Source: Micrococcaceae bacterium Sec5.1 (GTDB taxonomy: Bacteria > Actinomycetota > Actinomycetes > Actinomycetales > Micrococcaceae). Taken from it: a DNA stretch of 64,000 nt. The stretch covers positions 248,001 to 312,000 of the forward strand of contig CP143430.1 in the NCBI GenBank assembly GCA_039636795.1, in the 5' to 3' direction. The notes under the pieces are model-generated. The model did no database searches, was not told where the DNA came from, and saw nothing but the letters and a program-made list of their open reading frames with translations. Every line of letters begins with the position of its first letter. Within the stretch, counting starts at the first letter, position 1. Below, in pieces: positions 8,832-60,610 of the stretch. Position numbers and translations under genes: made by a program.

Positions 8832-9002
8832 GGTTTTCGGGTCTCGTTTGACGCCTCCAGGGGCGCTGATAATGGACGCCTCCCAACTGAATAGTGCACC
8901 TTCCTGCCGGATCGTGTCGCTGAAATTGCGAGTAATTTAACCCCCTAGTCGTAAGTACCCTGCGATTCAAGTCATCCCGGAATTTGCTGTCACACTGGGC
9001 TT

Positions 9003-10604
9003 ATGGGGAGCGATTTTGATACTGGTTCCAGCGGCGGAACCATCACCGCTGGACCAGTCACTGATCAGGTAATAATTGCGATGGTCCGCGGCGGCGACAC
9101 CGATGCCTTCGACTCGTTGTACCGGCGGCATTTGGCTGCTGCGCAATACGTTGCGCGGGCGAATACTGATAACCCGAGTGACGCCGACGACATCGTTGCC
9201 GAGGCATTCGCATCAGTGTTCCAGGCCCTTAGCAGCGGCAAAGGACCACGGGAGTTCTTTCGCGCCTACCTGCTGACAGTGGTGCAGCGGACGGCGCATG
9301 CGCGGAACCGGAAAGCAAGGCTCACCCAGTCTGCCCCTGACGATGCCATGCTGGATACCGCCGTCGTCGATGCTGATCCCATCCTGAAGGAATTCGAATC
9401 CTCCGCCGTGGCGGCGGCGTTCAAGTCGCTGCCAGAACGTTGGCAAGCGGTGCTCTGGCATGTGGACATTGAGGGCATGAAGCCCGCCGCTGCTGCGCCG
9501 TTCATCGGTATCAGCCCCAATGGAGTGTCGTCTCTGCTCATACGGGCAAGGGAGGGACTGCGTCAGGCTTATTTGCAAAACCACGTGGTGGTGGCTCCGG
9601 ACGATGAGTGTTCGGAGTATTCCGGCCAGTTGGGCAAATATGCACGGAACGCCCTGAAACGGACCTCACACGAAAAGGTCACTGCGCATCTGGAGACGTG
9701 CTCAAAGTGCACTGCACTGCTGTTTGAACTCAACCACATCCAAGGTGCCATGCGGGCGGCCCTCTTCCCCCTGGTGACCGGCATCGTGTTGACGCCTGGC
9801 GCGGTTGCGGGATTGCTCTCAGCATCGAACTCTTCCGCCCTCACAGGCGAAGGCCCGGCAACCGTTCGATCCCTCGGCCACGTGGGGAAGGTTGCTGCTG
9901 CTGCGGCCGTTGTTGCAGGGGTGGCGATTTTTGGTCTGGTCGCGTGGTTCGGGCAGTCCGGTGCCCAGGTCAATAACGCCGGCGATGCTCCAAGCACCTC
10001 CGCCGCGTCACCCTCGGCATCCAGCCCCACGGCGTCCAGCCCCTCGGCGTCCAGCCCCGCAAGGGACGCGCCCATCATGCCGTCCCCAGCTCAGCCAGCG
10101 GTGCAGTTGCCACAACCTTTTGTAAGTGAAGAGGTTCGGCCGCATCCTGTGTCCGAGGAAATAGCCAAGCAGCGGGCAGCAGTTGTCACGAACTCCGGGA
10201 CAGTGTCCTCAACCACCGAGGCCACGCCTTCAACGGCTGCCCCGTCACAGTCTGTCGACGCTGTTTTTGGCATGGAAGCTGGGGTCGGAGTACTCGAGCG
10301 CGATATCAGTGTGGGCTTTTCACTTCTGGGAGGCCCGGCATCAGGTTCCGGTGAAACAACCTTCAGCTTGCCGGAGAATGCCACCTTCATCCCGGGGAAA
10401 TTCTCGGCACCGACCGGATGGTCGTGCTCAGATCCTGCTGCGGACAATCGGTTGATCCGCTGCACCACGGCGTCCATCGAACCGGCCAGCCTGGCATTCA
10501 AGATGGGCGTTTCCCTTGGGAATCCGGAAGTTGGCAGCACGTTGAGCTATCAATTCGGCGGTCAACATGTCCTTACCAAGTCCTTCGCCAACGGCTTTCA
10601 CTAG
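9003..10604 (+). CDS. ECF sigma factor with zinc-finger, membrane segment and adhesin-like C-terminal domain
   Basis: A 533-residue fusion. Sigma region 2 lies at about residues 25-95 (DTDAFDSLYRRH, DADDIVAEAFASVFQAL) and region 4 at about 130-190 (SLPERWQAVLWHVDIEGM, ISPNGVSSLLIRAREGLR). A putative zinc-finger anti-sigma module follows with HLETCSKC at 229-236. A hydrophobic helix spans about 294-318, then a Ser/Pro/Ala linker (325-360) built partly from a 15-bp DNA repeat. A beta-rich C-terminal domain occupies about 418-533, with LPENATFIPGKFSAPTGWSC resembling DUF11-type adhesin strands. The inferred mechanism is membrane tethering of the sigma factor with an outside sensor, as in ECF groups with long C-terminal extensions. 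A weaker hydrophobic stretch at 253-275 leaves topology open. The next gene is a DUF11-type surface protein, its probable target. Confidence 0.85.
   Translation: MGSDFDTGSSGGTITAGPVTDQVIIAMVRGGDTDAFDSLYRRHLAAAQYVARANTDNPSDADDIVAEAFASVFQALSSGKGPREFFRAYLLTVVQRTAHARNRKARLTQSAPDDAMLDTAVVDADPILKEFESSAVAAAFKSLPERWQAVLWHVDIEGMKPAAAAPFIGISPNGVSSLLIRAREGLRQAYLQNHVVVAPDDECSEYSGQLGKYARNALKRTSHEKVTAHLETCSKCTALLFELNHIQGAMRAALFPLVTGIVLTPGAVAGLLSASNSSALTGEGPATVRSLGHVGKVAAAAAVVAGVAIFGLVAWFGQSGAQVNNAGDAPSTSAASPSASSPTASSPSASSPARDAPIMPSPAQPAVQLPQPFVSEEVRPHPVSEEIAKQRAAVVTNSGTVSSTTEATPSTAAPSQSVDAVFGMEAGVGVLERDISVGFSLLGGPASGSGETTFSLPENATFIPGKFSAPTGWSCSDPAADNRLIRCTTASIEPASLAFKMGVSLGNPEVGSTLSYQFGGQHVLTKSFANGFH
10015..10059 (+). 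repeat. Three 15-bp tandem repeats in the sigma factor linker
   Basis: Three adjacent copies of a 15-base unit (consensus CGGCGTCCAGCCCCN) begin at 10015, 10030 and 10045. They encode Ala-Ser-Ser-Pro-type residues in the linker after the membrane segment. Being a multiple of three, copy changes would alter linker length without a frameshift. Confidence 0.85.
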
Positions 10605-10780
10605 CGCTGGCGGCTTCCAAAACTTTTTCTATTTTCTCCGTCACGATTCGGCGTTGGCCAACACTAAGAGGCTGACAATATCTGTGCGCATCGGCTTCCT
10701 TGGAAGCGGAAGCACTAAGCGCAGCTGCCTGGGACTTGAGCCTGGGGCGCTTGGGGACGATGGAAAGATAAGCAACAGCC

Positions 10781-13507
10781 GTGAAGAATTCTCTCCTGGC
10801 CAGAACCTTGGTGATACTTCTCTCCACCCTTACCGCTGCTTCAGCGCTGGGCGGCCTTCAACTTTCTCCTGCGCAGGCGGTAACGCCATCAAAGCCACCT
10901 ACCCCGTCAACATCCTCGACGCCCGATGCTACGCAGCCTGGCACTGTAGTGTTCTCGGAGAATTTCGAGCACGGTAGCCCCAACTCCGCCCTGGGTGCGC
11001 AGTCCTACTCCGCTCCCGGATCAAAGCATTACGTTGGCAAGGGCGGCCAGTCGTACACAGGTTCTCCAGCTTGGATCGACGCCTCCAGGTGCAATGGCGT
11101 TATCCTGAGCTACCGGAATTCGACCACGCCCAGATGGGCGCAGTCCGGAACGGCGGCCGAAGGCAATGACAACAGGTGTTCCGAGCTCGCGGATATCCGC
11201 AGCTATCAGTACATGCGCATGTTGGCCTTGGCCATGGGTCAACAGTTCACCCCAGCTTCTCCCAGTACAAATCACGTCAACAGCTCATACACTGAATGCC
11301 CGTCCAGCAGTTCCAGCGGATCGGCGTGCGATGCCATCCCGTCCGGTCCCACGGATGGAGTGATGTTCAGGACGGCGAGCCCCATCCCGGTGACCGCGGG
11401 CCACTATTACACTTTTGGCCTGAATACGGCGTACATGAATTGCGGCCTGGCTGCGGGCGATCCGTCCTATCAATTCGCCACGGTCGATAGTGCTGGGGCG
11501 GTCACAGCCATCGGGAATCCACTTAACGGGTGCCAAACCTCGGACGATCCCAACGTGGACTCATTCCAGCAACAAGTGACCAGCGACGTCGGCGGAAACC
11601 CAGGAACCGTCACCAGGACCGTCAACATCAACTCGATGACATCGAACACCGCGATCCAGGCCGCCGGCAACTCCCTGGGGCTTGAAATGTGGAACAACAA
11701 CGGCACCACCAACGGGAACGATGGCGCATTTGACGATGTGCGCCTGATGGACGTGACTCCGCAATTGAAGCAATCCTTCACACCCTCAGTGGTGGGCCCC
11801 GGCGGGATATCCACCCTCACCCTCACTGTCACCAATACCAGCGAGCTCAACGCGAAGCATGACTGGTCCATCAACCAGGCGCTTCCTTCCGGACTGACGA
11901 TCGCCGGGAATCCGAACATCGGGGGAACGTGCGTTCAGGTTCCCGGAACCGACCCCTTCCTTCGCTCGGCAGAGGCGGGCAGCGGAACCCTCTCGATTTC
12001 CGGCGGCGACCTCCGTCCGGGGCAGGCCTCGTGTACCGTCCTGGTGGATGTGACAGTTTCGGCCGAGGGCACCTATTCCAGCGCATCCACAGACATTGCA
12101 ACCAACTTGAACCCTCCTGCAGCGGCTTCCCTTGTGGTCCGGGCTCCCCGGATTACGCTGGGCAAGGCGCTGACCACCGCCCGCGCTGCCGTCTCAGACC
12201 AATTCACAATGGAGATCCGTAAGGGGTCTCCTGCCGGTCCCGTGGTGAATGCCATTGGTCACTCAACTACATCTGGATCTGTGGCAGCCATCGCCGCGGG
12301 TACTGGTGTCACAGGTGAGACTATGGCCGACGCAGGCGCTACCTATTACCTCACGGAAGCGGGCGCCATCCCGTCCAACTACCTCCGGAGCATCACCTGT
12401 GCGGACGCGGCTGGCCTGCAGCCGAATTTGCCTGTGGGAGCGGCGGTTGACCGGCCGTTTGCACTTACACCCGTCGCCGGCGCAGACATCACGTGCATTT
12501 TGACTGGCACCGCTGCGGCCCTTCCCGGCCTCGGGTTTACTCACGGCGCTGATGCCTCCGCTGTCCACTCGCCAGCGCAGGTGGGGGATGTGATTCGCTA
12601 CAGCTTTGGGGCAACGAACAGTGGAAACGTGCCATTGAGGGATGTGGTCATCAACAACACCCTTGCCGGACTTCCGGAATTGGCATACTCGTGGCCCGGA
12701 ATCCCAGGTCAGTTGCTACCGGGGCAAACACTGACCGCTGTTGCTGCTTACAGGATCACCCAAACAGACCTCGACGCCGGTAAGGTCGCCAACTCGGCTG
12801 CGCTCGCCGGCGTTCCAGGCGCCGGCGGCCTCACGGCCTCGTTGCCGGTGACTACAGATACACCGCTGTCACCGGATGCGCGCCTGGAATTCTCCACGAC
12901 TGCGGATGCCTCTGCGGTGGGAGATCCCGCTCAGGTGGGCCAGGTCATCACGTATAATTTCATGGCGAAAAACGCCGGAAACGCCGCCCTCAAGGCGGTC
13001 TCCATTGAGGACCAAGTGCGGGGACGCGGGCCACTGGCCTACGCGTGGCCCGGAGTCGCCGGTGAACTGCTGCCTGGTGAAACTGTGACTGCTTCGGCAA
13101 GCTACAAACTCACGTGGTGGGACGTCAAAGCGGGCAACATCACTAACGCGGCAACAGCTATGGGGACGTCGTCGGCAGGCGGGCGGGTAACAACGCATCC
13201 TGCCACAACGGCAATAGCATTCCCGCGGACAGGGCAGAAGGAGAGCGCGGAGGCTTTCCAACGGCTGGCAGTTCAATCAGGACGAGAGGCCACTGCACAG
13301 GCCGTCCCGAATGCGTCCGTCTCGAAACAGCCCGGGGAGCAGGGTCAGCCCGGCGAGTCCGTCACCGCTACCAATTCATCGGCCGGAACATTGGCCTCCA
13401 CGGGAGTCACTCTAACCTTGCTGCCGGTTGCTGTCCTCATCCTTTCCGGTCTGGTCCTGTTCGTGATGGGACGCCGCAAAGCTGTCCGGAGTCAGGCGCA
13501 GGTCTAG
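10781..13507 (+). CDS. Large sortase-anchored surface protein with DUF11-like repeats
   Basis: Secreted, wall-anchored protein of 908 residues. A signal peptide covers about 1-33 (hydrophobic core, then SPAQAV). A lectin-like N-terminal region spans about 50-325. A DUF11-type beta domain follows (about 330-450), then two homologous domains of about 115 residues starting near 584 and 702, each with the shared strand YxWPGxxGxLLPGxT. The tail is a wall-sorting signal: LASTG at 871-875, a hydrophobic stretch and a basic end. The GTG at 10781 is preceded by GGAAAG but with wide spacing, so the start is moderately sure. It lies 176 bases after the membrane-tethered sigma factor gene. Role is inferred as adhesin or surface layer component; no enzymatic motif was seen. 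Confidence 0.87.
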   Translation: MKNSLLARTLVILLSTLTAASALGGLQLSPAQAVTPSKPPTPSTSSTPDATQPGTVVFSENFEHGSPNSALGAQSYSAPGSKHYVGKGGQSYTGSPAWIDASRCNGVILSYRNSTTPRWAQSGTAAEGNDNRCSELADIRSYQYMRMLALAMGQQFTPASPSTNHVNSSYTECPSSSSSGSACDAIPSGPTDGVMFRTASPIPVTAGHYYTFGLNTAYMNCGLAAGDPSYQFATVDSAGAVTAIGNPLNGCQTSDDPNVDSFQQQVTSDVGGNPGTVTRTVNINSMTSNTAIQAAGNSLGLEMWNNNGTTNGNDGAFDDVRLMDVTPQLKQSFTPSVVGPGGISTLTLTVTNTSELNAKHDWSINQALPSGLTIAGNPNIGGTCVQVPGTDPFLRSAEAGSGTLSISGGDLRPGQASCTVLVDVTVSAEGTYSSASTDIATNLNPPAAASLVVRAPRITLGKALTTARAAVSDQFTMEIRKGSPAGPVVNAIGHSTTSGSVAAIAAGTGVTGETMADAGATYYLTEAGAIPSNYLRSITCADAAGLQPNLPVGAAVDRPFALTPVAGADITCILTGTAAALPGLGFTHGADASAVHSPAQVGDVIRYSFGATNSGNVPLRDVVINNTLAGLPELAYSWPGIPGQLLPGQTLTAVAAYRITQTDLDAGKVANSAALAGVPGAGGLTASLPVTTDTPLSPDARLEFSTTADASAVGDPAQVGQVITYNFMAKNAGNAALKAVSIEDQVRGRGPLAYAWPGVAGELLPGETVTASASYKLTWWDVKAGNITNAATAMGTSSAGGRVTTHPATTAIAFPRTGQKESAEAFQRLAVQSGREATAQAVPNASVSKQPGEQGQPGESVTATNSSAGTLASTGVTLTLLPVAVLILSGLVLFVMGRRKAVRSQAQV

Positions 13508-14090: not shown

Positions 14091-15653
14091 GTGACGTCAC
14101 CAAGTGTCGAAGAGCGGATCGCTCAGGAGCAGGACTTTGGCTCCAAGGTGGAACTGGCCCTCGCTGCCACAAACCAGCTGTTCAACGCACGAAATTCGCC
14201 CAGCTATGTGGCGCAGGTTCTTCAGGGAGTCAACGCTGTCTCCACAAAAGTCCAGCGCACAGCCCGGCCGTTCACCGGCGTCGGGCATGCAGAACTCAGG
14301 GCCAGGGTTGGTGCGATCGATCTTGAACGTCCGCTGCCGGATATGGCTGCTGCCCTGGAGGAGCTTGACGAGCTCTACCTCAAGGACGCGATCTACTTCC
14401 ACGATGCCCGTTACGCGGCACACCTGAACTGCCCGGTGGTCATTCCCGCTTTGGTTGGTGAAGCCGTACTTTCGGCCATGAATTCCTCCATGGACACGTG
14501 GGACCAGAGTGCCGGCGCCACCATGATCGAGCGGCGACTCATCGATTGGACTGCGGGGCGGATCGGTTTTGACATCGATGCCGATGGTGTCTTCACCTCA
14601 GGTGGGAGCCAGTCCAACTTCCAGGCGTTGCTGATCGCCCGCAACCACGCCGTGGCAAAGCTCCGAGCCACGAATGGCGACGCGCGCCTGCCGCATGCCC
14701 TGGACCGACTCCGGATTTTCACGTCCGCAGACAGCCACTTCAGCATCCAGAAGTCCGCTTCCATGCTGGGGCTCGGCTTCGATGCCGTGATCTCCGTTCC
14801 CACCACCGACGATCACCGCATGGATCCCACCGCACTTGCGGCTGCTTTGGCGGAAGCGCACGACGCCGGCTTGGTGCCGATGGCGGTCGTGGCCACTGCT
14901 GGGACTACCGACTTTGGTTCGGTTGATCCGCTCTCCGAACTGGCGGCCTTGGTGCGGGCCTTTGATTCCTGGCTTCACGTCGACGCAGCTTACGGCGGAG
15001 GCCTCATCGTCTCCGGCCGCTACCGCCACCTCCTGAACGGGATCCTTCTGGCGGACTCCATCACTATTGACTTCCATAAGACCTTCTTCCAGCCTGTCAG
15101 CTCCAGCGCAGTCCTGGTCCGCAACGGCTCCATGATCCGCCACGTCACCTACCACGCGGACTACCTGAACCCAGAGAGTGCCGCGAGGGCTGAAATTCCC
15201 AACCAGGTGGACAAGAGCATCCAAACTACCCGCCGCTTTGATGCCCTGAAGCTGTGGCTCACCCTGCGCGCTATGGGCGCCGATGCCATTGGTGCGCTGT
15301 TCGACGAAGCGATCGACCTCGCCGGCCGTGTGGGAACCCTGTTGGTGGATGACGCCGAGTTCGAACTCGCCGCCACACCCCAGTTGAGCACTTTGGTGTT
15401 CCGCTACCGTCCGGCCGTTGACGGCGTGATCTTGGACGAGGACGCCGCTGACGTCCTCAACCCTGACATCCGCGCAGCGATCTTTGCTTCGGGCGAAGCC
15501 GTGGTTGCCGGCACCAAGGTGGCTGGCCGCCACTACCTCAAATTCACCCTCCTCAATGCCGAGGCCTCCCTGAGGGACATCCAGGAAATCATCGAACTTA
15601 TCCGCCGGACGGGCGCCAGCCTGCTTGCGGCCACCACGGAGGCTGCAGCGTGA
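14091..15653 (+). CDS. desA: PLP-dependent diamine-forming decarboxylase of siderophore biosynthesis
   Basis: Pyridoxal-phosphate decarboxylase of 520 residues, group II fold. In desferrioxamine pathways it converts lysine to cadaverine. The PLP lysine is in [11 protein letters not shown] at about K330; [11 protein letters not shown] supplies the Asp that contacts the pyridine ring, and [10 protein letters not shown] contacts phosphate. The GTG start at 14091 has GGAAGGAAGC upstream. It is the first gene of a four-gene chain with every junction overlapping, directly under an iron box. Related enzymes act on 2,4-diaminobutyrate; the neighbouring hydroxylase and DesC/DesD-like genes favour lysine, but this is context-based. 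Confidence 0.9.
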
Positions 15654-16993
15654 GCACCCCGGACAACAGCAGGATTTACGACGTCGCTGGCATCGGCGTC
15701 GGGCCCTTCAACCTGGGTCTCGCCGCGCTAAGTGAGCCGGTTGACGGCCTGGACTGCGTCTTCCTTGAACGTCGCGAAACCTTCGACTGGCACCCCGGCA
15801 TGATGCTTGAACCCGCGCATCTGCAGGTCCCGTTCATGGCTGACCTCGTCACCCTGGCCGATCCGACGTCGCCGTACTCGTTTTTAAACTTCCTCAAGCA
15901 GACCGGACGCCTGTATCGCTTCTACATCCGGGAAAACTTCTACCCGCTGCGCGCCGAATACAACCAGTATTGCCAGTGGGTGGCGGGCCAACTGGAGTCG
16001 GTCCGTTTTAGCACAGATGTGCTGGATGTGGCGTACGACGACGGTGTGTACCGCCTTTCGGTGCAGGGTCCGGATGGTGCTGAGGTGCTTCGCGCCCGCC
16101 GGTTGGTCCTGGGAACCGGTACCTCGCCGTATGTCCCGGACTCCTGTGCAGGGATTATGGACGGCGGCGGAGTTGTCCTCCACAACGCCGAGTACCTGTC
16201 GAGGAAGAGTGAGCTGCAGTCCAAGCGCAGCATCACCATCGTCGGCAGCGGCCAGAGTGCAGCGGAGCTCTACTACGAGCTCCTTCAGGAAATTGATGTG
16301 TACGGCTACCAGCTCAACTGGGTGACCCGCTCGGGCCGCTTCTTCCCGTTGGAGTACACCAAGCTCACCCTTGAAATGACCTCGCCGGAGTACGTGGACT
16401 ACTTCCACTCGCTGCCGGGGGAGCGGCGCGATTCCCTGATCAAGAGCCAGAAGAACCTGTACAAGGGCATCAACTCGGACTTGATCGACGATATCTACGA
16501 TCTCCTGTACACCAAGAGCCTTTCCGGCATGGTGGATACGCAGCTGCACACCCACTCGTCGCTAACAGCCGCGAAATGGGACGCGTTCACGAGCACCCAC
16601 ACACTGCAGTTGCACCATGAGGAACACGGCCGCAACTACAGCTTGGAGTCCGAAGCCGTGGTTCTCGCCACCGGCTACACGTACAAGGAACCCGCCTTCC
16701 TGGCCGGCATCCAGGACCGGATCCGCCGCGACGCCAAGGGCCGCTTCGACGTCGAGCGCAACTATGGAACCGGCGTCGAACCCGGCGAAATCTTCGTCCA
16801 GAACGCCGAGCTTCACACCCACGGATTCGTCACGCCGGACCTTGGCATGGCTGCCTACCGCAACTCCTGCATCCTGCGGGAAATGACCGGCCGTGAGGTC
16901 TATCCGATCGAGCGGAGCATCGCGTTCCAGCAGTTCGGTGCGCCGGCACCAGTTGCTTCAACAGTTCCGAATACCGTGGGAGCCGCTGTATGA
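15650..16993 (+). CDS. desB: Diamine/amino acid N-monooxygenase (IucD/SidA/DesB family)
   Basis: FAD- and NADPH-dependent N-hydroxylase of 447 residues producing the hydroxylamine needed for hydroxamate groups, here probably N-hydroxycadaverine. The FAD-binding motif [14 protein letters not shown] is at about residues 15-28 and the NADPH motif [15 protein letters not shown] near 200. The family end motif [12 protein letters not shown] is present near residue 345. The GTG start overlaps the upstream stop by four bases. Soluble cytoplasmic enzyme; part of the des operon and expected to be induced by iron limitation. Confidence 0.92.
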
Positions 16994-17580
16994 GCTTCAC
17001 GTTCCGGCCGGTCGACCCCATAGCGGACGCACCCGTCCTCCACAGCTGGGTAAGTCAGGAGTACGCACGGTTCTGGGGCATGGTTTCTGCCACCGAGCAG
17101 GACGTTGTGGAGGAGTACTCGCGAATCGCCGAATCGGGTCACCACCAGGCGTTCCTGGGGCTCGACGACGGCGTGCCCGCTTTCCTCATGGAGCGGTACC
17201 GGCCGGAGTCGTCGCCCTTGGCGGACGTCTATGAGGTCCAGGGCGGTGACGTGGGAATGCACCTCCTGGTTTCTCCGCCCAGTGGCGACCCGCAGCCTGG
17301 CTACACCACGGCCGTCATGCACTCGGTGATGGCCGAACTGTTCGCCGACCCCGCAACCCGGCGGGTCGTCGTCGAGCCTGACGCCCGCAACCACAAGATC
17401 CATGTGCTGAACGAGAAGGTGGGCTTCCGCCCGCACGTCCTGGTGACCCTTCCCGCCGTCGATCCTGCCGAAGACCACAAGCAGGGGCTCCTGAGCTTCT
17501 GCACGCGCGAGGATTTCCTCGCAACCCTGACCCCGATTCTGGCCGCGACTGCCGCGGCGACCAGAGGAGATTCCCTGTGA
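16990..17580 (+). CDS. desC: Siderophore N-acyltransferase (GNAT, IucB/RhbD/DesC-like)
   Basis: Acyl-CoA-dependent transferase of 196 residues that acylates the hydroxylamine, giving N-hydroxy-N-succinyl- or acetylcadaverine in desferrioxamine routes. [25 protein letters not shown] at the start (shown across the first strand and helix) and [20 protein letters not shown] near the acetyl-CoA site are typical of the siderophore acyltransferase branch; the AlcB-type HxxxxxD motif is absent from what can be seen. The ATG overlaps the hydroxylase stop (ATGA). Acyl donor (succinyl versus acetyl) cannot be decided. Confidence 0.88.
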
Positions 17581-19418
17581 CTACTACTGCCGATACCGTG
17601 ACCACTCCGGCTGTTGATTCCGTTTCCCACCTGACTCCTGAGCGCTGGGCCGCCGCCAACAGGCACTTGGTCCGCAAGGCGATCGCCGAGTTCTCTCACG
17701 AGCGCATCCTGGTTCCGGAGCTGATCCGTGAGGAGGGCGCCGGCGTCGGGCTCTACAAGGTTGTCAGCGACGACGCCACCGTTGAGTACCGCTTCCGTGC
17801 GCGACTCTTGGCGCTTGAACACTGGTCCGTGTCTGCTGAGTCGATTGCCCGGCTGCGCGGCACCGATGAGCTGACGCTGGATGCCTTGGATTTCATCACG
17901 GAATTCCACGAGGCACTGGCCATCCGGCAAGAGATGCTGCCCGTCTACCTGGAGGAAATCAGCAGCACACTCGCCAGCCACGCCTACAAGCAGGGCAAGC
18001 CGTTTAGCTCTGCCGAGCTGGCGGCGGGCATCACCCGCGGTACGGACCAGGCGGCCGATTTCCAGGCGATCGAGCACAGCATGACCGAGGGGCACCCATG
18101 CTTCGTTGCAAACAACGGCCGGCTGGGTTTCGGCATCGCCGATTACCATGCATTCGCGCCGGAAACCGGTGCCGTGGTCAAGCTTCAGTGGATCGCCGTT
18201 CATCGCAGCAAAGCCGTCTTTACGTCCAGCGCAGGTTTGGATTACCGGACGCATTTTGAGGCCGAACTTGGAGCTGCAACTCTGGCATGGTTCAACGCGG
18301 ACCTTTCCGCTTCCGGCCTTGATCCTGAGGACTACCTGTTCATGCCGGTGCATCCCTGGCAATGGGATAACAAGCTCACCGTAACGTTCGCGGCAGAAAT
18401 CGCCCAGCGGCACATTGTGAACCTGGGCAGCGGCGAGGACTCCTACCAGGCGCAGCAGTCCATCCGTACGTTCTTCAACACCACGTCGCCGGCGAAGGCG
18501 TACGTCAAAACGGCCTTGTCAGTGCTGAACATGGGTTTTATGCGTGGTCTTTCTCCTCAGTACATGAAGGCAACGCCGGCAATCAACGATTGGTTGCAGG
18601 AACTGATCGGCAATGACCAGGAGCTCCAGAACCGTGGCTTGGCCATGATCCGTGAAACGGCGGCCGTCGGTTACTACAACCACTATTACGAGGCTGCATC
18701 GGCCAAGGGCTCTCCATACGGGAAGATGCTCTCGGCTCTGTGGAGGGAAAGTCCCCTTCCGATGCTCAAGGACGGCCAGCAGTTGGCCACCATGGCGTCC
18801 TTGTTGCATGTGGATTCCTCCGGGGCATCCCTGGTCTCATCCCTGATTCAACGCTCAGGTTTGGCTCCAACTCAGTGGCTGCGCCGCTACTTCGAGGCCT
18901 ACCTCGTTCCGTTGATCCACTGCCTCTACGAGTATGAGCTCGCGTTCATGCCTCACGGCGAGAATGTCATCCTGATCCTCGAGGACGGCGTGCCGGTACG
19001 GGCCGTCATGAAGGACATTGCCGAGGAAATCGTGGTCATGGGGGACCGGCTGGACTTGCCCGAGGAAGTCTCCCGCATCAAGGCTGAGATCCCTGCCGAG
19101 GAAATGGTCCTCGCGATCTTCACTGACGTGTTCGACTGCATCTTCCGTTTCCTCGGGGCCATCCTTGTGGAGGACGGGACCCTGCGCGAAGACGAGTTCT
19201 GGGGGACGGCAGCTGCCGTGGTTCGCGAATATCAGGAACGGCATCCGGAACTAGCGGACCAATTCGCCATGCATGATCTGTTCGCTGCTGACTTCGAGTT
19301 GTCCTGCCTTAACCGGCTGCAGCTGCGGAACAACCAGCAGATGCTCGATATCTCGGATCCGTCCTGTGGATTGCAGATGGCTGGCCGCCTGGCCAATCCA
19401 TTGGCAAAGTTCGATTAA
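17577..19418 (+). CDS. desD: NIS siderophore synthetase (IucA/IucC family)
   Basis: ATP-dependent, NRPS-independent siderophore synthetase of 613 residues. It would condense N-hydroxy-N-acylcadaverine units into a linear or macrocyclic hydroxamate such as desferrioxamine. Family motifs visible are EGHPCFVANNGRLGFG, PVHPWQWDN, FFNTTSPAKAYVKTALSVLN and PHGENVILILEDG. The GTG overlaps the acyltransferase stop. The C-terminal FhuF-like domain follows the synthetase core as usual. A hairpin 15 bases downstream probably ends the operon. No siderophore exporter or uptake gene lies in the window. Confidence 0.93.
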   Translation: MTTTADTVTTPAVDSVSHLTPERWAAANRHLVRKAIAEFSHERILVPELIREEGAGVGLYKVVSDDATVEYRFRARLLALEHWSVSAESIARLRGTDELTLDALDFITEFHEALAIRQEMLPVYLEEISSTLASHAYKQGKPFSSAELAAGITRGTDQAADFQAIEHSMTEGHPCFVANNGRLGFGIADYHAFAPETGAVVKLQWIAVHRSKAVFTSSAGLDYRTHFEAELGAATLAWFNADLSASGLDPEDYLFMPVHPWQWDNKLTVTFAAEIAQRHIVNLGSGEDSYQAQQSIRTFFNTTSPAKAYVKTALSVLNMGFMRGLSPQYMKATPAINDWLQELIGNDQELQNRGLAMIRETAAVGYYNHYYEAASAKGSPYGKMLSALWRESPLPMLKDGQQLATMASLLHVDSSGASLVSSLIQRSGLAPTQWLRRYFEAYLVPLIHCLYEYELAFMPHGENVILILEDGVPVRAVMKDIAEEIVVMGDRLDLPEEVSRIKAEIPAEEMVLAIFTDVFDCIFRFLGAILVEDGTLREDEFWGTAAAVVREYQERHPELADQFAMHDLFAADFELSCLNRLQLRNNQQMLDISDPSCGLQMAGRLANPLAKFD

Positions 19419-19601: not shown

Positions 19602-20354
19602 TCAGGCTGACCGTCTATAGCGGAGGCCTGCCATGGCCCGGTCGCACTCAGCTCGGGAGCTGGGAAGATCCAAAAATTCCACGAGCGTGCGCCGCCCAAT
19701 GCCCTCGTGTAGCCGGTCAATGAGTTGCAGACAGCGAAACAACGCCTTGTAGCTCTCCCGCTTGCGGCTCATCAACGTGTGAATGCTGCCGCGATGGTAG
19801 GCGGCAGTGGCGTCCACTGCCGCTAATTCGCCTCGGCATATGTTTCCCATTTCCGCCAACATGTCCCAATTAAGCAGTTTGCCGCCCTCAGACCATTCGA
19901 GGTGCAGGGTTGCTATCGTGTGGCTTCTCCGCCCGGCGCTGCGGCCGAGCGACATTTCATGGATCAGCCTTTCGAAGTGCGCCATGGTTGCAAGCCCTGT
20001 ATAGACGTCGGTGCAGGAGAACGGTTCAAGACGTTCATTTTCCATTGCCCATCCCTCGACGAGATCCCGCATGGAGCCGTCATCAGCCGGCACGCCTGCC
20101 GCTTCGAAAAAGGCACTGAAATCCTGCATGGTTTCGCGGACTCCAACGCCGTGATAAGCACGGGACGCCCCGAGATTCTTGGCAGACATTTGCAGCTCAC
20201 CACCCTCCGCTTGGGTCTTCAGCATGTCCTCGACTTCAGGAACGAGCCAATCACCCGGGAATAGCCATCCTGCTTGCTCACTACGTTGTCGCCAGCGCCC
20301 ACGGAGCTGTAAGGACCTGCTTTCGATTTTCAGATGAGCGCGTTGATCTTTCAT
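19602..20354 (-). CDS. Hypothetical protein, possible degenerate GGDEF-like domain
   Basis: A soluble protein of 250 residues without signal or membrane segments. The middle carries DVYTGLATMAHFERLIHEM, resembling the DPLTGLxxxxxFxxRL helix that opens GGDEF domains. It is followed by a strand-like TIATLHLEW where the metal Asp would be, but no GGDEF signature. If related, it cannot be an active diguanylate cyclase. The start may be ATG at 20354 or TTG at 20360; neither has a clear ribosome site. It is divergent from the pilin locus across about 250 bases. It could equally be an unrelated actinobacterial regulator; confidence in the domain is low. Confidence 0.4.
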   Translation of the reverse strand: MKDQRAHLKIESRSLQLRGRWRQRSEQAGWLFPGDWLVPEVEDMLKTQAEGGELQMSAKNLGASRAYHGVGVRETMQDFSAFFEAAGVPADDGSMRDLVEGWAMENERLEPFSCTDVYTGLATMAHFERLIHEMSLGRSAGRRSHTIATLHLEWSEGGKLLNWDMLAEMGNICRGELAAVDATAAYHRGSIHTLMSRKRESYKALFRCLQLIDRLHEGIGRRTLVEFLDLPSSRAECDRAMAGLRYRRSA

Positions 20355-20503
20355 GTCCAATGAGTGCCATTGAGCGCCAAGTCATGACGCAATTTCGTCC
20401 AAATACTGGACATCGTTCTCCCTTGGACAAGGTTCCATCCGCGGCCAGAAAAAGTTTTCGCTTTTTGCGGCATGAACTTTTCCCACGCCGCACTCATTGA
20501 CTG

Positions 20504-20606: not shown

Positions 20607-23228
20607 TTGAAGTATCCGGTTGGGAAGATTACGGCGTTCGTTGCCGCGTTGATGATGGTCCTGGGAGGGCTTTCATTCGGGACGCTGGGCTTCGGGACAC
20701 CGGCTCAGGCTTACGAGATCGCGACCGCCCCGGCGACCCTCAATGGTCCCGGTACTGTCGCCACACTTTCCATGCCTGGGTCTGGTCTGACCACCACCTA
20801 TGGCCAGTCGGGTTATACCTACATGGTGGGCCGGTCAACGATCGGCAGCCGTGGATATGTGGCCTCTGATTTCTCACAAAACGTAGGAACAGGGGCCCCT
20901 GCTGTTGAATTCGCCACCCACGCAGTCAATAATTGCGCGGCAACCGGCCCCTGTAGCGGCTTGGGGACCGTCACGATCGCGTTCAGCCAGCCGGTGAGGA
21001 ATCCCGTGCTCAACATCGCTGGCCTCGGCGGAGAGGTCGACTTGGATGAAACTGACAACGGGAGTGTTGACCGACAATCCCAGTTGAGCGCCGTCCTTAA
21101 CCTCGCAACCCCAGGCCTGACGATGACCAAGCTGTCGGGTGGCAACCTTTCGGTGGCAAACAACGCCATCACTACTAGCAACAACAATGCCGGAACGGCG
21201 TGTAATACGAGTGTGCAGACCGGCACACCCGACCCTGTCGACGCACAGGCTACGGCAGGATGTGGATCGGTCCGCATCAACGGCATCGTGACCACGTTGA
21301 CTTTCAACATCAGCAGCGTCTTCATTCCAGTCAGCAGCACGATGCCCGGTTACACCGACAACGACATCACACACATCGGAGACCACAACCAGGACAACTT
21401 CGTCATTGCGATGAGCGCTCTGCAGGATTTCGGTGATGCTCCGGCCAGTTATGACCAAGGCAGTGCTGCCCGGGCTGTTCTGTCGGACGTGACTCTTGGG
21501 CCGAACGTCACTGAGGACAACGCGACGGTTGCCAACGGCACCGCCTCGCCGAATGCGGGTCTGACGGCGGCCCAGGACCTGATGGACGACGGCGTGGTGC
21601 TGGCTCCGATGGTGCAGGGTGCTACGAGCTACTCGACAACGGTGGCGATCAGCGGGGCCAGTAAAGCAGGCATGACCTGTGGGTGGATTGATTTCAACAA
21701 GGACGGGATTTTCAATAACACTGCCGAGCGCGCCTGCGCTTCCTTCTTGGCGGGTGCCACGACCGCCACACTGACCTGGACGTCGATCGCTCCCGTGACT
21801 GCGGGGACGACGTATGCGCGGTTCCGGATCGGCTACGCCACCGCCCAGGTCCAGCTCCCGATCGGACCCTCCGATTCCGGCGAAGTGGAGGATTACATCT
21901 TCACGGTCGCTCCGGCCGCTGCTCCGGCGATCACGCTGGTGAAGACGGTGAACAAGACCACGCTGGTGGCCGGTGAAACGGCCACGTACACGTTCGTGGC
22001 GAAAAACACGGGCAACGTGACGCTGACCTCGGTGGTCATCGCCGAGACGCAGTTCTCCGGAACCGGCACGATGTCGGCCCTGTCCTATGCCTGGCCTGGC
22101 CTTCCCGGTGTGTTGTTGCCCGGGCAGTCCGTGACCGCGACTGCAACGTATGTGGTCACGGCGCCGGATGTCACGACGGCGTTGCTGACCAACACGGCGA
22201 AGGTCACTGGAAACCCGCCCTTGGGGTTGCCCGTCACGGCGGTCGATGACGCGCAGGTCACAGCACCGGCGGCGTGGAAGATCAAAAAGACCGCCACGGT
22301 CAACGGGGCGGTTCCCGCGAACGGGTCCGTCAGCCCGGGGCAGACCATCGTGTACACGGTCACGGCTACGAGTGTCAGCGGCACCATCACCGGGGTCGTG
22401 CTGAAGGACAACCTGGGGGAGGTCCTGGATGACGCGACGTTCGTGTCCGGTTCCGCGACCCTGGTGATCGGCACGGGAACACCCGTGGCGGTCGCCAACC
22501 CGGTGCCGCCCTCCACCCTGCTGAGCACCGCGGCGTTTACCCTGCCTGCCGGGCAGACAGCCACCCTGAAGTACAGCGTCGTGGTCAAGACCGGGGCGTG
22601 GAACAAGGAGCTTGTCAACATGGTGACGGGCACGGCGACCACCACTCCGCCCCAGACGTGTGCACCAGGCTCCAGCGGGCCGGGCCCTGACTGCACCACC
22701 ACCCACCGCACCCCGGGCAAGGTCCTGATCGAGAAGATCGGCGAGTCCTCCGGCGGCACCTGGGTCCCGATGGCCGGCTCCACCTGGGCCGTGCACGTGG
22801 ACAACAACGGCGCCCCCGGCGCCCTCCTGGCCAGCCCGGCCGTCACCGCCGTGGCCGGGCAAACCGGCCGGTTCCAACTCGAAGGAATCCAGCCCGGAAC
22901 GTACTGGCTTGCAGAAACCAAGGCCCCGGCCGGGTTCAGCCTGCTCGCCGAACCGGTGAAGTTCACCCTCGCCACCACCGGTGCCGTGACCCTGGGCCAG
23001 GGTTCCCAAGGCCAGGGCGCCGGTAGTGGGGTCGTGACCAGCACGGACGCCGACGGAGACGGGATTTTCCTGCTCACGGTCCGGGACGTGCCGGCCCTGA
23101 AGCTGCCCGAGTCTGGCGGCATCGGCTGGTGGCCCTTCACCACCGCCGGATCAGCCCTGCTGCTGGCCGCCCTCGCCCTGACCCTGGCCGCCAACCGCCG
23201 CCGCCGGAACGAGCCCATCACCACCTAG
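20607..23228 (+). CDS. Sortase-anchored adhesin/accessory pilin (GEVED, DUF11-like, SpaA-type domains)
   Basis: Secreted surface protein of 873 residues. A signal peptide covers about 1-35 (ending TPAQAYE). A beta-rich N-terminal region is followed by a GEVED domain at about 276-430 (WIDFNKDGIFNN, then SGEVEDYIFTV). One domain with the strand YAWPGLPGVLLPGQS spans 440-540, sharing its repeat type with the surface protein at 10.8 kb. A further DUF11-like module (555-680) and a SpaA-type prealbumin domain follow (about 705-790, ending GTYWLAETKAPAGF, an E-box for isopeptide bonds). LPESG at 833-837, a hydrophobic helix and a basic tail form the sorting signal. The start is TTG with GGAAGGA five bases upstream. 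Size, order and context suggest a pilus tip or adhesin. Confidence 0.88.
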   Translation: MKYPVGKITAFVAALMMVLGGLSFGTLGFGTPAQAYEIATAPATLNGPGTVATLSMPGSGLTTTYGQSGYTYMVGRSTIGSRGYVASDFSQNVGTGAPAVEFATHAVNNCAATGPCSGLGTVTIAFSQPVRNPVLNIAGLGGEVDLDETDNGSVDRQSQLSAVLNLATPGLTMTKLSGGNLSVANNAITTSNNNAGTACNTSVQTGTPDPVDAQATAGCGSVRINGIVTTLTFNISSVFIPVSSTMPGYTDNDITHIGDHNQDNFVIAMSALQDFGDAPASYDQGSAARAVLSDVTLGPNVTEDNATVANGTASPNAGLTAAQDLMDDGVVLAPMVQGATSYSTTVAISGASKAGMTCGWIDFNKDGIFNNTAERACASFLAGATTATLTWTSIAPVTAGTTYARFRIGYATAQVQLPIGPSDSGEVEDYIFTVAPAAAPAITLVKTVNKTTLVAGETATYTFVAKNTGNVTLTSVVIAETQFSGTGTMSALSYAWPGLPGVLLPGQSVTATATYVVTAPDVTTALLTNTAKVTGNPPLGLPVTAVDDAQVTAPAAWKIKKTATVNGAVPANGSVSPGQTIVYTVTATSVSGTITGVVLKDNLGEVLDDATFVSGSATLVIGTGTPVAVANPVPPSTLLSTAAFTLPAGQTATLKYSVVVKTGAWNKELVNMVTGTATTTPPQTCAPGSSGPGPDCTTTHRTPGKVLIEKIGESSGGTWVPMAGSTWAVHVDNNGAPGALLASPAVTAVAGQTGRFQLEGIQPGTYWLAETKAPAGFSLLAEPVKFTLATTGAVTLGQGSQGQGAGSGVVTSTDADGDGIFLLTVRDVPALKLPESGGIGWWPFTTAGSALLLAALALTLAANRRRRNEPITT

Positions 23229-23333
23229 AAGAGTTCCCCCCAATCCCCGCCGCGTGTTTGTGGGGTGGGGCGGTGCATGTCCATCTCCGAGCACTACCAG
23301 TTTGAAAAATCATCACGATGAAAGAGGAAACAA

Positions 23334-24815
23334 GTGAGTAATCACCACACCGGGCGGCTTTGGAAGACCGCCGCCGCTACGATCGCCGGGGCGGTGTTGG
23401 CGATGTCCTTCTCCGTGGCCCCGGCCTCGGCTGCGCCCCTGGTTGATGGGGACAAGACCGGTTCGATCACGGTCCACAAGTTCGAACGCCCCGCCACCCC
23501 GACGGGCCTGCCGAACAACGGCACGTCCGTGGACACCACCGGCCTGACACCGTTGGCCGGTATCGAGTTCACGATCCAGCAGGTCAACACCATCGACCTG
23601 TCCACCAACGCCGGCTGGGACGCCGCGCACAACCTCTCGGGCGTGTTCGCCCCGGCCAACCCCGCGGGCTCGATCACTGGCGCCGGGTACACCCTGGGCG
23701 CTGCCCAGGCGAAAACCACCGACGCTGCCGGGACCGCCGGTTTCACCGCACTGCCGGTGGGCCTGTACCTGGTGACGGAAACGAACTACCCCGCCGGTGT
23801 GACGCCGTCGGCACCGTTCCTGGTGTCCGTGCCGTTGACGGACCCGGATAACAAGGACAACTGGATCTACGACGTCCACGTCTACCCGAAGAACTCCGTT
23901 GCCGGGGCCGAGAAGACCGTCACGGACGCCCCTGACGTCAAGCTCGGGGACCAGATCGACTTCACCATCACCGGTGACATCCCGAACGAAGCCGTCATCG
24001 ATGGCTACAAAATCGTGGACGTCCTGGACCCGAAACTGACCTACGTCGGCGCGTCCGCGACCCTCGTTGACGGCACGCCCATCACGGCAAGCACGGACTA
24101 CACCGTGAGCTTCGACGCCGCGACCAACACCGTCTCAGTTGTTTTCACTACCGCCGGCCGTGCGAAACTGGCTGCACATACCGACACCCGTGTGCAGGTC
24201 ATGGTGAACACCAAGGTCAACACCATCGGTGAGATCGAAAACGAAGCCGTCGTGTACCCGAACGCTGCCAGCTTCACCACCACCCCGGGCCAGCCCGGCG
24301 GCCCGATCGTCACGCCCCCGGTCGTGACCAAGTGGGGCGAAATGACGCTGCAGAAGGTCAACGAGAACGGTGCAGCCCTTGCCGGCGCTTCCTTCTCGGT
24401 TTACACCAACCAGGCTGACGCGCAGGCCGGGACGAACCCGGTTGACCTCAACGGCCAGACGGTCTTCACCGTCGCCGCTGACGGCACCCTGACGATCTCG
24501 GGCCTGCGGTACTCGGACTGGGCCAACGGCGCCGCCCTGGCACCCGGAACCCCGGACTACCGCACGTACTACCTGGTAGAGACCACCGCCCCGGCAGGCT
24601 ATGAACTGCTCGCCGAGCCGGTCTCCTTCCTGATCAACAGCACCAGCACGACGGTCGGTATCGACCTTGAAGTGAAGAACATCCCCTCCAACAGCGGCTT
24701 CCAGCTGCCGCTGACCGGTGGCGTGGGAACCGGCATTCTTTACGCAGCCGGTGCCCTCCTCGTCGTCGGTGCGGCCCTGATGTTCGTCCGCAACCGCCGC
24801 ACCAGCAACAACTAA
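23334..24815 (+). CDS. Major pilin (SpaA/SpaH type, isopeptide-forming, LPXTG)
   Basis: Shaft pilin of 493 residues. After a signal peptide of about 33 residues it starts with the pilin N-domain (GSITVHKFERP). The pilin motif WIYDVHVYPKN at 177-187 carries the Lys (K186) used by the sortase to join subunits. The E-box YYLVETTAPAGYELL holds Glu 416 for an internal isopeptide bond. LPLTG at 458-462 with a hydrophobic helix and a basic tail is the sorting signal. The GTG start at 23334 is preceded by AAAGAGGAAA. It sits between the adhesin-like pilin and the class C sortase, the canonical arrangement for a covalently polymerised pilus. Confidence 0.95.
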   Translation: MSNHHTGRLWKTAAATIAGAVLAMSFSVAPASAAPLVDGDKTGSITVHKFERPATPTGLPNNGTSVDTTGLTPLAGIEFTIQQVNTIDLSTNAGWDAAHNLSGVFAPANPAGSITGAGYTLGAAQAKTTDAAGTAGFTALPVGLYLVTETNYPAGVTPSAPFLVSVPLTDPDNKDNWIYDVHVYPKNSVAGAEKTVTDAPDVKLGDQIDFTITGDIPNEAVIDGYKIVDVLDPKLTYVGASATLVDGTPITASTDYTVSFDAATNTVSVVFTTAGRAKLAAHTDTRVQVMVNTKVNTIGEIENEAVVYPNAASFTTTPGQPGGPIVTPPVVTKWGEMTLQKVNENGAALAGASFSVYTNQADAQAGTNPVDLNGQTVFTVAADGTLTISGLRYSDWANGAALAPGTPDYRTYYLVETTAPAGYELLAEPVSFLINSTSTTVGIDLEVKNIPSNSGFQLPLTGGVGTGILYAAGALLVVGAALMFVRNRRTSNN

Positions 24816-24865
24816 CACCAGCACCACCGCAACCGGTAGCACCACTAACCGGTAAGCAACACTGC

Positions 24866-24888
24866 GGGGGCCGCTACCCGCGGCCCCC
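24866..24888 (+). terminator. GC-rich hairpin after the major pilin gene
   Basis: Perfect 9-base arms (GGGGGCCGC at 24866-24874, GCGGCCCCC at 24880-24888) with a 5-base loop, 50 bases after the pilin stop. It could end or attenuate transcription so the sortase is made at a lower level than the pilin. No T-run follows. Confidence 0.6.
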
Positions 24889-24898
24889 ACAGGAACCC

Positions 24899-24939
24899 CA
24901 AGTGGGGAAGAACGCCAACCACGCGCTCTTCCCCACTTG
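24899..24939 (+). terminator. Second hairpin between major pilin and sortase
   Basis: Perfect 13-base arms at 24899-24911 and 24927-24939 with a 15-base loop, immediately after the first hairpin and 49 bases before the sortase start. It is likely to reduce read-through or stabilise the pilin mRNA 3' end. Confidence 0.6.
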
Positions 24940-24988
24940 CATTCCACTTTCACTCTTCATAACCGACTCACCCAGCTACAGGATTTTG

Positions 24989-25927
24989 ATGACACAGGCA
25001 CCAACCCGCACCCGTCGTGGACTCGGGCATCTGACCGGACCGTGGAGCCGCCAACGGCTCCTGATCGTGTTGGTCGCGGTCATCGGCGTCGGAATCCTGC
25101 TTTATCCCACGGCCGCGGCCTGGTTCTCGGATCGGGTCCATGCCACCGAGATCAGCGGCTATGTGGATTCTGTCCAGACCATGAACCCCTCCGCGAAGAA
25201 GTCCCTCCTCGACCAGGCCCGGGAGTTCAATGAAGAACTGCCCTCGGGACCTCTGCGCGACCCTTACTCCTTGAATGAAGCAGGGGAACAAACCACCATC
25301 GGTGCCGGCTCCGAGGCGTATAAGGAGATGCTGGCTGTCGGTCCTGGAGGCATGATGGGCCGCATCAGCATTCCGTCCATCCACGCCGATTTGCCCATCT
25401 TCCACGGCACGGACGAGGACACCCTCTCGAAAGGCGCCGGCCACCTCTTCGGCTCCGCGCTGCCCGTGGGCGGCAAAGGCACTCATAGTGTTTTGAGCGC
25501 TCATTCAGGGTTCGTAAACGCCACCCTTTTCGACGACCTGGACAAAGTCCATGAAGGTGACGTCTTCAGCATCAACGTGCTCGATGAAACCCTTTATTAC
25601 AAGGTCGACCAAATCCTCACGGTACTGCCCGACCAAACTGAGGCCCTGCGCAAGGTTGAGGGCAAGGATTACCTCACACTCATTACCTGCACGCCCAAAG
25701 GCATCAACAGCCACCGGCTACTTGTTCGCGGCGAACGAACCACCGCACCCACCAGCGCTGAGGGACCCCGCACCCTGCCGTCCACCACAACAGACCCCGG
25801 ATTCCCTTGGTGGATCCTTGGCATCACCGGTTCGATAGTGCTGGCCATCATCGCCACCAAGCCGCGCAGGCGATCCTCTGACGAAGAGCAGGCGATACCC
25901 TCTGACGAAGAGCATTTGATCTTCTGA
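24989..25927 (+). CDS. Class C (pilus-polymerising) sortase
   Basis: Membrane-bound transpeptidase of 312 residues that would link pilin subunits through the LPLTG threonine and the pilin-motif lysine. An N-terminal helix (about 21-42) and a C-terminal helix (about 275-295) flank the catalytic domain, as expected for class C. The catalytic triad is visible: H172 in LSAHSGF, C234 in TLITCTPKG and R243 in SHRLLVRG. LRDPYSLNE before the core may be the lid motif. The ATG at 24989 follows AGGA; a TTG at 24986 and a longer frame from 24902 overlapping the hairpins are less likely. The last 20 residues are acidic and encoded by a 14-bp repeat. Confidence 0.94.
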   Translation: MTQAPTRTRRGLGHLTGPWSRQRLLIVLVAVIGVGILLYPTAAAWFSDRVHATEISGYVDSVQTMNPSAKKSLLDQAREFNEELPSGPLRDPYSLNEAGEQTTIGAGSEAYKEMLAVGPGGMMGRISIPSIHADLPIFHGTDEDTLSKGAGHLFGSALPVGGKGTHSVLSAHSGFVNATLFDDLDKVHEGDVFSINVLDETLYYKVDQILTVLPDQTEALRKVEGKDYLTLITCTPKGINSHRLLVRGERTTAPTSAEGPRTLPSTTTDPGFPWWILGITGSIVLAIIATKPRRRSSDEEQAIPSDEEHLIF

Positions 25928-60395: not shown

Positions 60396-60497
60396 AACAG
60401 GCGCCGGATTAGACGGCATCAGCCCGTCAGAATCAATCTTTCCGTGAGATTCGCGTCACAAATTCGCATTCGGCCACACACTATTGAATGACAAAAT

Positions 60498-60511: not shown

Positions 60512-60610
60512 CTTTTGGCTTGCGGCCGCCCCAAGGTCGAAGTTGTCCTGGGGCGCAGTGCCGTTCCCCCAACGTGTCATCGAGTATGGAAAGGGTTGAG
60601 GCCGTGTTGC

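Follow-up and report, generated by a model that had tools for sequence, protein, structure and literature searches.

Membrane-tethered extracytoplasmic function (ECF) sigma factors are already known. The groups ECF52, ECF53 and ECF48 of Actinobacteria, with SCO4117 of Streptomyces coelicolor, combine an ECF core, a zinc-finger anti-sigma module, a membrane helix and a proline-rich extracytoplasmic extension, and proteolytic activation has been proposed for ECF factors with C-terminal extensions (PMC8999054, PMC5826349). Sharing of modules between sensor and target is known as well: in SigI/RsgI of Clostridium thermocellum, a transmembrane anti-sigma factor displays a module of the family to which the sigma targets belong (PMC4711584). 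Here we analyse a related gene in a 64,000-nucleotide stretch of Micrococcaceae bacterium Sec5.1 (contig CP143430.1, positions 248,001 to 312,000), hereafter the window, to which coordinates refer. The gene encodes a tethered ECF sigma factor of 533 amino acids (aa) and stands directly before a surface-protein gene that it probably controls. Unlike in ECF52/53/48, the outer domain in this family appears to be a CLIPPER (DUF11)-like fold or a whole sortase pilin and not a carbohydrate-binding module, and the apparent targets are adjacent sortase-anchored fibres. In SigI/RsgI, by contrast, the anti-sigma factor is a protein separate from the sigma factor, its modules are polysaccharide-binding, and region 4 is absent from sigma-I. 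The sigma gene, its parts and its neighbour are as follows.

9003..10604, + strand: membrane-tethered ECF sigma factor, 533 aa (ATG open reading frame, ORF; Sigma70_r2, zf-HC2, r4_2)
9117..9320, + strand: sigma region 2, residues 39-106 (Pfam PF04542, 35.1 bits, over cut-off)
9408..9554, + strand: sigma region 4, residues 136-184 (Pfam PF08281, just below cut-off here)
9609..9710, + strand: fused zinc-finger anti-sigma module, residues 203-236 (zf-HC2, E 2.5e-4)
9891..9947, + strand: predicted membrane helix, residues 297-315, N-in/C-out (hydropathy; positive-inside rule)
9948..10244, + strand: Ser/Pro/Thr/Ala-rich linker, 61% P/S/T/A; an AVVTNSG motif stands close to the end
10245..10601, + strand: predicted extracytoplasmic CLIPPER(DUF11)-like beta-sandwich, residues 415-533 (AlphaFold2, Foldseek)
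10781..13507, + strand: LASTG-anchored surface protein, 908 aa (GTG start; Pfam)

Regions 2 and 4 without other sigma regions class the protein, by its domain matches, as an ECF sigma factor, and NCBIfam TIGR02937 is matched at 54.6 bits (cut-off 42.9). The zf-HC2 score of the window protein is 21.5 bits against a cut-off of 22.2; the Sigma70_r2, r4_2 and zf-HC2 models are all matched at E<=1 by 77/77 aligned relatives. The motif HLETCSKC (residues 229-236) supplies the H-x3-C-x2-C signature of a fused zinc-finger anti-sigma module after region 4, with H229, C233 and C236 invariant in the 77 relatives. Two hydrophobic stretches occur, at residues 254-272 and 297-315, and the second alone fits a membrane helix. 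Because positive charge is greater before than after this helix in 86/86 relatives (15 residues on each side; mean K+R 2.0 before and 0.13 after), the tail is predicted to lie outside the cell, N-in/C-out. The computed membrane helix and extracytoplasmic C terminus are those of an ECF48/52/53-like factor. The linker motif recurs in R.AVVVDSG-like and related forms in both tail types described below (strict pattern in 25/42 orthologs) and may serve for cleavage or docking. What the original prediction, made from the DNA letters of this stretch, had described is thus borne out: an ECF sigma factor fused to a zinc-finger-like HLETCSKC module, a hydrophobic helix with a Ser/Pro linker, a beta-rich tail predicted to lie outside the cell and, immediately downstream, a DUF11-type LASTG surface protein, in a class of ECF factors with C-terminal extensions that was indeed already described.

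A genus survey covered 206 genomes, of which 53 held a close sigma match (E<=1e-60), and the ortholog set comprised 42 sigma loci with bits over 379, every one inspected at locus level with rough ORF rules as gene calls. Since 42 orthologs turned up in 206 genomes of the genus, the architecture is more than chance. The nearest named database relative of the window protein is that of Paenarthrobacter sp. RAF54_2 (99% identity). Among the orthologs, 33 have a short tail with a W-x-C...C pattern (DUF11-type) and nine are pilin-tailed (863-928 aa). An upstream acyltransferase flank was found in 39/42 loci. In the window, 176 bp separate the sigma gene from the surface gene, whose product matches DUF7507 (twice), DUF7933, SpaA_3 and DUF11, and whose first 578 aa are homologous to the pilus tip protein of the pilin-tailed locus L016 (41% identity over 585 columns). 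In the gene-order survey called for by the original prediction, 31/33 DUF11-type orthologs stand directly before a homolog of the window surface protein or of the pilus tip protein. Of these 31 surface genes, 28 have a recognised sorting signal; one of the others is cut by a contig end and two are short ORFs.

Promoter-like boxes, scored where given by a position weight matrix (PWM), connect the sigma gene with this neighbour and with further genes of the window.

10639..10665, + strand: box CGTCACGA-N15-CACT, 116 bp before the surface gene (exact genome match; PWM 46.9)
8971..8996, + strand: box TTCAAGTCA-N18-CACT (GTCA-N18-CACT), which stops 6 nt short of the sigma ATG
8893..8919, - strand: divergent box copy upstream of sigma (PWM 24.5)
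20363..20389 (G000:268363-268389), - strand: box with one mismatch, just before a conserved partner gene
20468..20494, + strand: box with two core mismatches, 113 bp before a pilus operon (PWM 20.9)
60454-60480, + strand: box copy 35 bp before ORF 60515-61630 (PWM 16.7)

The pattern GTCA-N18-CACT occurs in 33/42 sigma-surface gaps against 0.32 expected, and other GTCA...CACT spacings (14-23 tried) gave one match in these gaps, at 23. In the whole 5.43-Mb genome three sites match CGTCACGA-N15-CACT exactly, none more than 1 kb away from one or other of two family sigma genes. The first is the box 116 bp before the likely start codon of the window surface gene. The second stands 48 bp before that of a LATTG surface gene, which lies 0.9 kb away from a paralogous sigma gene (784322); the third follows closely on this paralogous gene, 62 bp before a likely start codon. 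A one-mismatch box also stands 45 bp ahead of the paralogous gene. Built from 31 loci that exclude the window clade, the consensus reads cc.AAAA.TtTTTC.gATTTTCGCGTCACGATtcGcg..tTgC.cCCACTg, and a held-out PWM scan of the window returned 46.9, 24.5, 20.9 and 16.7 as its top four scores, the best of 20 shuffles reaching 5.9 (shuffles here and for spacing being first-order Markov resamplings). Over the 840 kb that the 42 loci comprise, the matrix gives 84 sites a score above 15, against none in reversed sequence; 52 of the 84 lie in the 330 bases after sigma, home of the training sites. Upstream of sigma, GTCA-N17/18-CACT lies wholly before the longest ORF in 23/42 loci (15 at 17, 8 at 18), a count that would rise if the longest ORF starts too early; with 60 bases of the ORF included, 16, 16 and 4 loci have the box at spacings 17, 18 and 19. 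One-mismatch genome matches (37, of which 33 were examined) are mostly noise, a backwards control giving 28 in all against 40. The core pattern with <=2 mismatches is no commoner in the window than chance (6 found, 6.78 expected), so that the evidence lies in the exact matches and the longer weight matrix.

Because the box is common to the surface-gene locus and the sigma family, the neighbour is the probable target, as the original prediction had proposed; control of this gene by sigma is well supported by the shared box, which the window sigma factor presumably recognises. From the box 6 nt before the sigma ATG a leaderless mRNA may arise. In locus L014, the site equivalent to 8893..8919 precedes a pilus tip gene divergent from sigma behind the same box, whose product is 76% identical to the window pilus tip protein over 875 columns. 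The classical ECF promoter, which we take to be GGAAC...CGTC, is not the conserved part here, the conserved pair being GTCA-N18-CACT. The box CGTCACGA-N15-CACT also differs from CSGYN-17bps-SRHA, which is reported for SCO4117. In 8/9 pilin-type loci (L102-L106, L174, L176 and L177) the sigma-surface gap contains an inverted repeat (e.g. CCCACTG..CAGTGGG) that overlaps the box at its CACT half and could be an extra control element.

The clearest resemblance between sensor and target comes from the pilin-tailed orthologs. Some entries obtained in a homolog search bear the name 'SpaH/EbpB family LPXTG-anchored major pilin' and consist of this sigma factor with a pilin attached; the fusion is one intact ORF in nine genomes, and the pilin D1 domain occurs in 16/120 listed sigma relatives. 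SpaH-like pilin and sortase genes start <=5.5 kb downstream in 9/9 pilin-tailed loci and in 0/33 others (one of the 33, L107, being covered for just 4.0 kb downstream). Compared over about 448 aa, the sigma-borne pilin and the major pilin of its operon share 79.7-91.7% identity. It keeps the VYPKN lysine and the E-box in 9/9 cases (one of the nine major pilins fails the lysine pattern used) and an LPXTG-like signal in 9/9, LPFAG and LATTG counted; the L016 fusion scores 20.2 bits with Gram_pos_anchor (cut-off 20). By lysine, E-box and LPXTG with hydrophobic and charged tail, the sigma-borne pilins are sortase pilins, as in SpaA, SpaD and FimP, from which they differ in that sigma factor, zinc finger and membrane helix replace the signal peptide. 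The fusion P0076 matches fimbrial subunits (3uxf, 4hss and 3hr6 with its pilin part) and SigE in the Protein Data Bank. Mean pairwise NG86 ratios of nonsynonymous to synonymous substitution rates (dN/dS) are 0.18 (sigma-borne pilin), 0.16 (major pilin) and 0.14 (sigma half), indicating that the sigma-borne pilin is under purifying selection. In the sigma tree the nine pilin types form one clade (98/89), sister to L097 plus L168 and nested among DUF11 types; because of this nesting, sensor and adjacent downstream genes are read as having been exchanged together, once. Gene conversion between sigma-pilin and major pilin is not favoured, each forming its own clade (88/89 support).

The window tail, of about 120 aa, was modelled with AlphaFold2 at a pLDDT of 88.9 and a pTM of 0.80, and its best Foldseek match is the DUF11/CLIPPER crystal structure 9IFR (E 5e-7), supporting a predicted CnaA/DUF11-like E-set beta-sandwich. 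The strand LPENATFIPGKFSAPTGWSC, residues 456-475, holds part of an invariant signature: W473, C475 and C487 are unchanged in 77 relatives, the same W/C/C is invariant in 23 tails from several genera, and W-x-C...C is present in 33/33 short-tailed orthologs. The original prediction that the tail is like the DUF11 repeats of surface proteins stands for the predicted fold and is less secure by sequence. Scanned alone, the window tail has no Pfam match at E<=1, PF01345 included, and DUF11 (PF01345) is matched by 2/23 aligned tails (best E 3.2e-5). DUF11 is also absent among the 25 of 31 families listed for 77 full-length relatives (hmmscan, E<=1), those outside the 25 having <=1 member each. The sequence-level link to DUF11 thus appears weak. 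The isopeptide Lys/Asp/Asn residues of DUF11 are not conserved, no K, D or E column reaching 60% and one N column standing at 64% in the first 14 aligned tails, and the tail differs from the DUF11 domains of fibrillar adhesins in carrying the W-x-C...C signature instead. Some DUF11 domains, however, lack an intramolecular isopeptide bond (PMC12617251).

Tail distances track those of the stalk domains of the neighbouring surface protein beyond what the sigma half explains (28-30 DUF11-type loci): partial r is 0.50 for DUF7933 and 0.47 for SpaA_3, each with 0/500 permutations as high, in a test that accounts for phylogeny through sigma distances alone. The N-terminal part of the surface protein is not tracked (partial r 0.03, 171/500 permutations), yet it sits between the tail and the stalk domains on the DNA. 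Since the tail covaries with DUF7933 and SpaA_3 and not with the N-terminal part, contact of the tail with the stalk may be weakly favoured over binding of a shared ligand.

About 10 kb from the sigma gene the window holds a complete sortase pilus operon (20607-25927) with a box copy in front, preceded by a divergent partner gene.

20607..23228, + strand: pilus tip-like protein, 873 aa, LPESG (DUF7507, DUF7927, GEVED, SpaA)
23334..24815, + strand: SpaH-like major pilin, 493 aa, LPLTG (PF16555, PF17802, PF16569, PF00746)
24902..25927, + strand: pilus-operon sortase, 341 aa (PF04203)
19602..20360, - strand: conserved partner, 252 aa, degenerate GGDEF-like regulator (family search, AlphaFold2, Foldseek)

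The window major pilin is 55% identical to the L016 pilin. The partner family matches 50/81 ORFs divergent from family sigma genes (E<=1.5e-7; some loci fetched twice), and the head-to-head arrangement with sigma, which recurs in many Actinobacteria, is found by pattern in 39/80 loci, L014 left out. The window partner has no Pfam family and no NCBIfam match over cut-off, and no intact GGDEF motif was found in its sequence. Its AlphaFold2 model (pLDDT 90.9, pTM 0.63) comprises a helical part and a GGDEF-like part; the best Foldseek matches are GGDEF proteins at E 1e-3 (TM 0.33-0.40), none falling under 1e-3. Among 39 aligned partner kin (38 loci and the window), two match GGDEF_2 (best 6.9e-6) and four RsbRD_N (best 0.014). 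Between the two surface-gene loci lies a cluster at 14091-19418 with decarboxylase, N-hydroxylase-like, GNAT and IucA/IucC-like genes, which we take to be of siderophore type. The ORF at 60515-61630, behind the fourth-ranked box, presumably encodes a LacI-type regulator, to judge from its start.

The sigma family extends to 90/296 genomes and 24/114 genera sampled in the class (E<=1e-40), and to four plasmid records at the same threshold. PF01345 is found somewhere in the sigma protein of 79/120 listed long-tailed Cellulomonas-type relatives. Long ectodomains, in many cases including DUF11, bring the sigma protein to 846-2149 aa in Cellulomonas, Isoptericola, Oerskovia, Demequina and others (loci including L036-L039, L042, L043, L046-L048, L055 and L057-L060). 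Short forms also exist: a third family member of the present genome (L133; G000:C1:3272630-3273385) consists of sigma and zinc finger in 284 aa without helix or tail, and L030-L033 are similar forms in other species. The gene divergent from L133 is presumably Lrp/AsnC-like. Assignment to ECF52 proper through its carbohydrate-binding module (smart00776) was rejected, the window tail having no such match in Pfam, SMART itself not being searched; the family is likewise absent among the 25 of 31 families listed for the 77 relatives, and no carbohydrate-binding Pfam match was obtained for the Streptomyces member L087.

Several observations weigh against the self-monitoring reading proposed below. 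When tails were compared with their own loci by BLASTP (E<=1e-3; 70 of 80 loci across Actinobacteria, those with a closed tail of >=60 aa after the helix, 10 being dropped), cognate matches numbered 3/70, all of them pilin tails, against 27/5530 non-cognate pairs; the other 67 tails show no sequence similarity to their neighbours. DUF11-type tails likewise have no detectable similarity to the neighbour protein by own-locus BLASTP or by hhalign, in which the tail profile against five neighbour-domain profiles stayed below 1% probability; as SpaA_3 against an SpaA-type pilin domain and two DUF11-like domains failed too, the hhalign comparison carries no weight. Neither the window tail nor its close kin has a C-terminal sorting signal; lacking this signal, conserved isopeptide residues and similarity to the neighbour, a DUF11-type tail, judged by its residues, cannot be built into the fibre as a pilin tail could. 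Being one event, the pilin swap does not make the 9 versus 0 contrast nine independent observations. Moreover, pilin and sortase genes are present at 12.4-14.5 kb downstream in three DUF11-type loci (the window, L164 and L165), and in a fourth, L166, a pilus operon lies on the upstream side, so that in these four adjacency alone differs from the pilin types. L097 and L168 (2/33) have no adjoining surface gene, although high-scoring boxes (48.7 and 56.7) persist there ahead of the next gene, a sign that the surface gene may have been lost. Many neighbours in distant genera, judged by eye, are not surface-protein-like, and outside Micrococcaceae the simple box lies upstream of sigma in no locus, one minus-strand match apart. 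A sensor resembling its target, as the original prediction had it, is therefore seen solely in Arthrobacter/Paenarthrobacter, where nine orthologs carry a near-copy of the downstream pilin and so strengthen it beyond what the original prediction could see, and does not hold as sequence resemblance across the wider family; as a whole, the earlier interpretation is partly supported.

Taken together, the parts fit a self-monitoring loop, in which sigma would drive fibre genes and display a domain of the fibre kind outside. The fused zinc-finger anti-sigma module would keep the ECF sigma factor inactive at the membrane, and the helix and flexible linker would carry outside a domain built like, or copied from, fibre stalk or shaft subunits. 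Active sigma would transcribe its own gene, the LASTG gene, the nearby pilus operon and the degenerate-GGDEF partner from CGTCACGA-N15-CACT-type promoters. The outer domain would presumably sense the fibre, most likely reporting whether subunits are free or assembled, how loaded the sortase is, or how hard the fibre is pulled; the tether would then presumably be cut by proteolysis and the sigma part set free. Cleavage of the helix by an M50 (site-2 type) protease is a candidate step, and candidates for such proteases are present in the genome, one of them at G000:1716452. This chain within one protein, from fibre state through proteolysis to fibre genes, has in our view about an even chance of being correct. 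A bolder form is tentative and rather doubtful: the sigma-pilin would be a polymerisable subunit, putatively joined covalently by sortase within the pilus or at its base, so that assembly state or pull would set pilus-gene transcription, the DUF11-like window version being a non-covalent form and the degenerate GGDEF partner a second input.

Alternatively, the outer domain may bind a ligand or surface in the environment to which the adhesin binds too, and so activate sigma, tail and target resembling each other since both bind the same thing. Precedents are at hand, RsgI6 of C. thermocellum bearing a GH10 module 57% identical to the xylanase Xyn10D (PMC4711584) and the ECF52 factor SCO4117 an outer carbohydrate-binding module (PMC5826349). 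This environmental sensing is nevertheless unlikely here: the covariation lies with the stalk and not with the N-terminal part, and the pilin tail keeps its polymerisation residues. Major pilins, moreover, are mainly structural. The same is reported of DUF11 stalk domains (PMC12617251). A further alternative is a tether that ties sigma to the wall or fibre and registers mechanical load or general envelope stress in place of the assembly of one particular protein, for which the sigma-pilin's own sorting signal, the long Ser/Pro linker and relatives whose ectodomains bring them to as much as 2149 aa would speak. We consider such a gauge quite improbable, the missing sorting signal of the window tail and its close kin fitting it poorly and the joint exchange of tail and downstream genes being left unexplained. 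That a duplicated pilin gene merely joined the sigma gene by accident without any sensing, the DUF11-like tail being a common extracellular fold, would agree with the single origin of the pilin fusion and the frequency of CnaA-like folds in surface proteins, but is highly improbable given the purifying selection (dN/dS 0.18), key pilin residues kept in 9/9, an intact ORF in nine genomes, 16 clusters among 120 listed proteins and replacement jointly with the operon.

No description of a sigma-pilin fusion was found among the papers listed by the literature searches. As far as our searches reach, novelty extends to this fusion, to the replacement of sensor and fibre genes together, to the promoter box and to the partner with its GGDEF-like part. 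The ways in which Gram-positive bacteria keep watch over their sortase-built pili and fibrillar adhesins, and regulate them, are to our knowledge largely open. In these soil bacteria of the Arthrobacter group, a single polypeptide would span the way from promoter recognition to a near-copy of a fibre subunit. The natural joint exchange of sensor and target, together with a predicted box that has a short target list, makes self-sensing of fibres directly testable, and the family may offer a modular sensor design.

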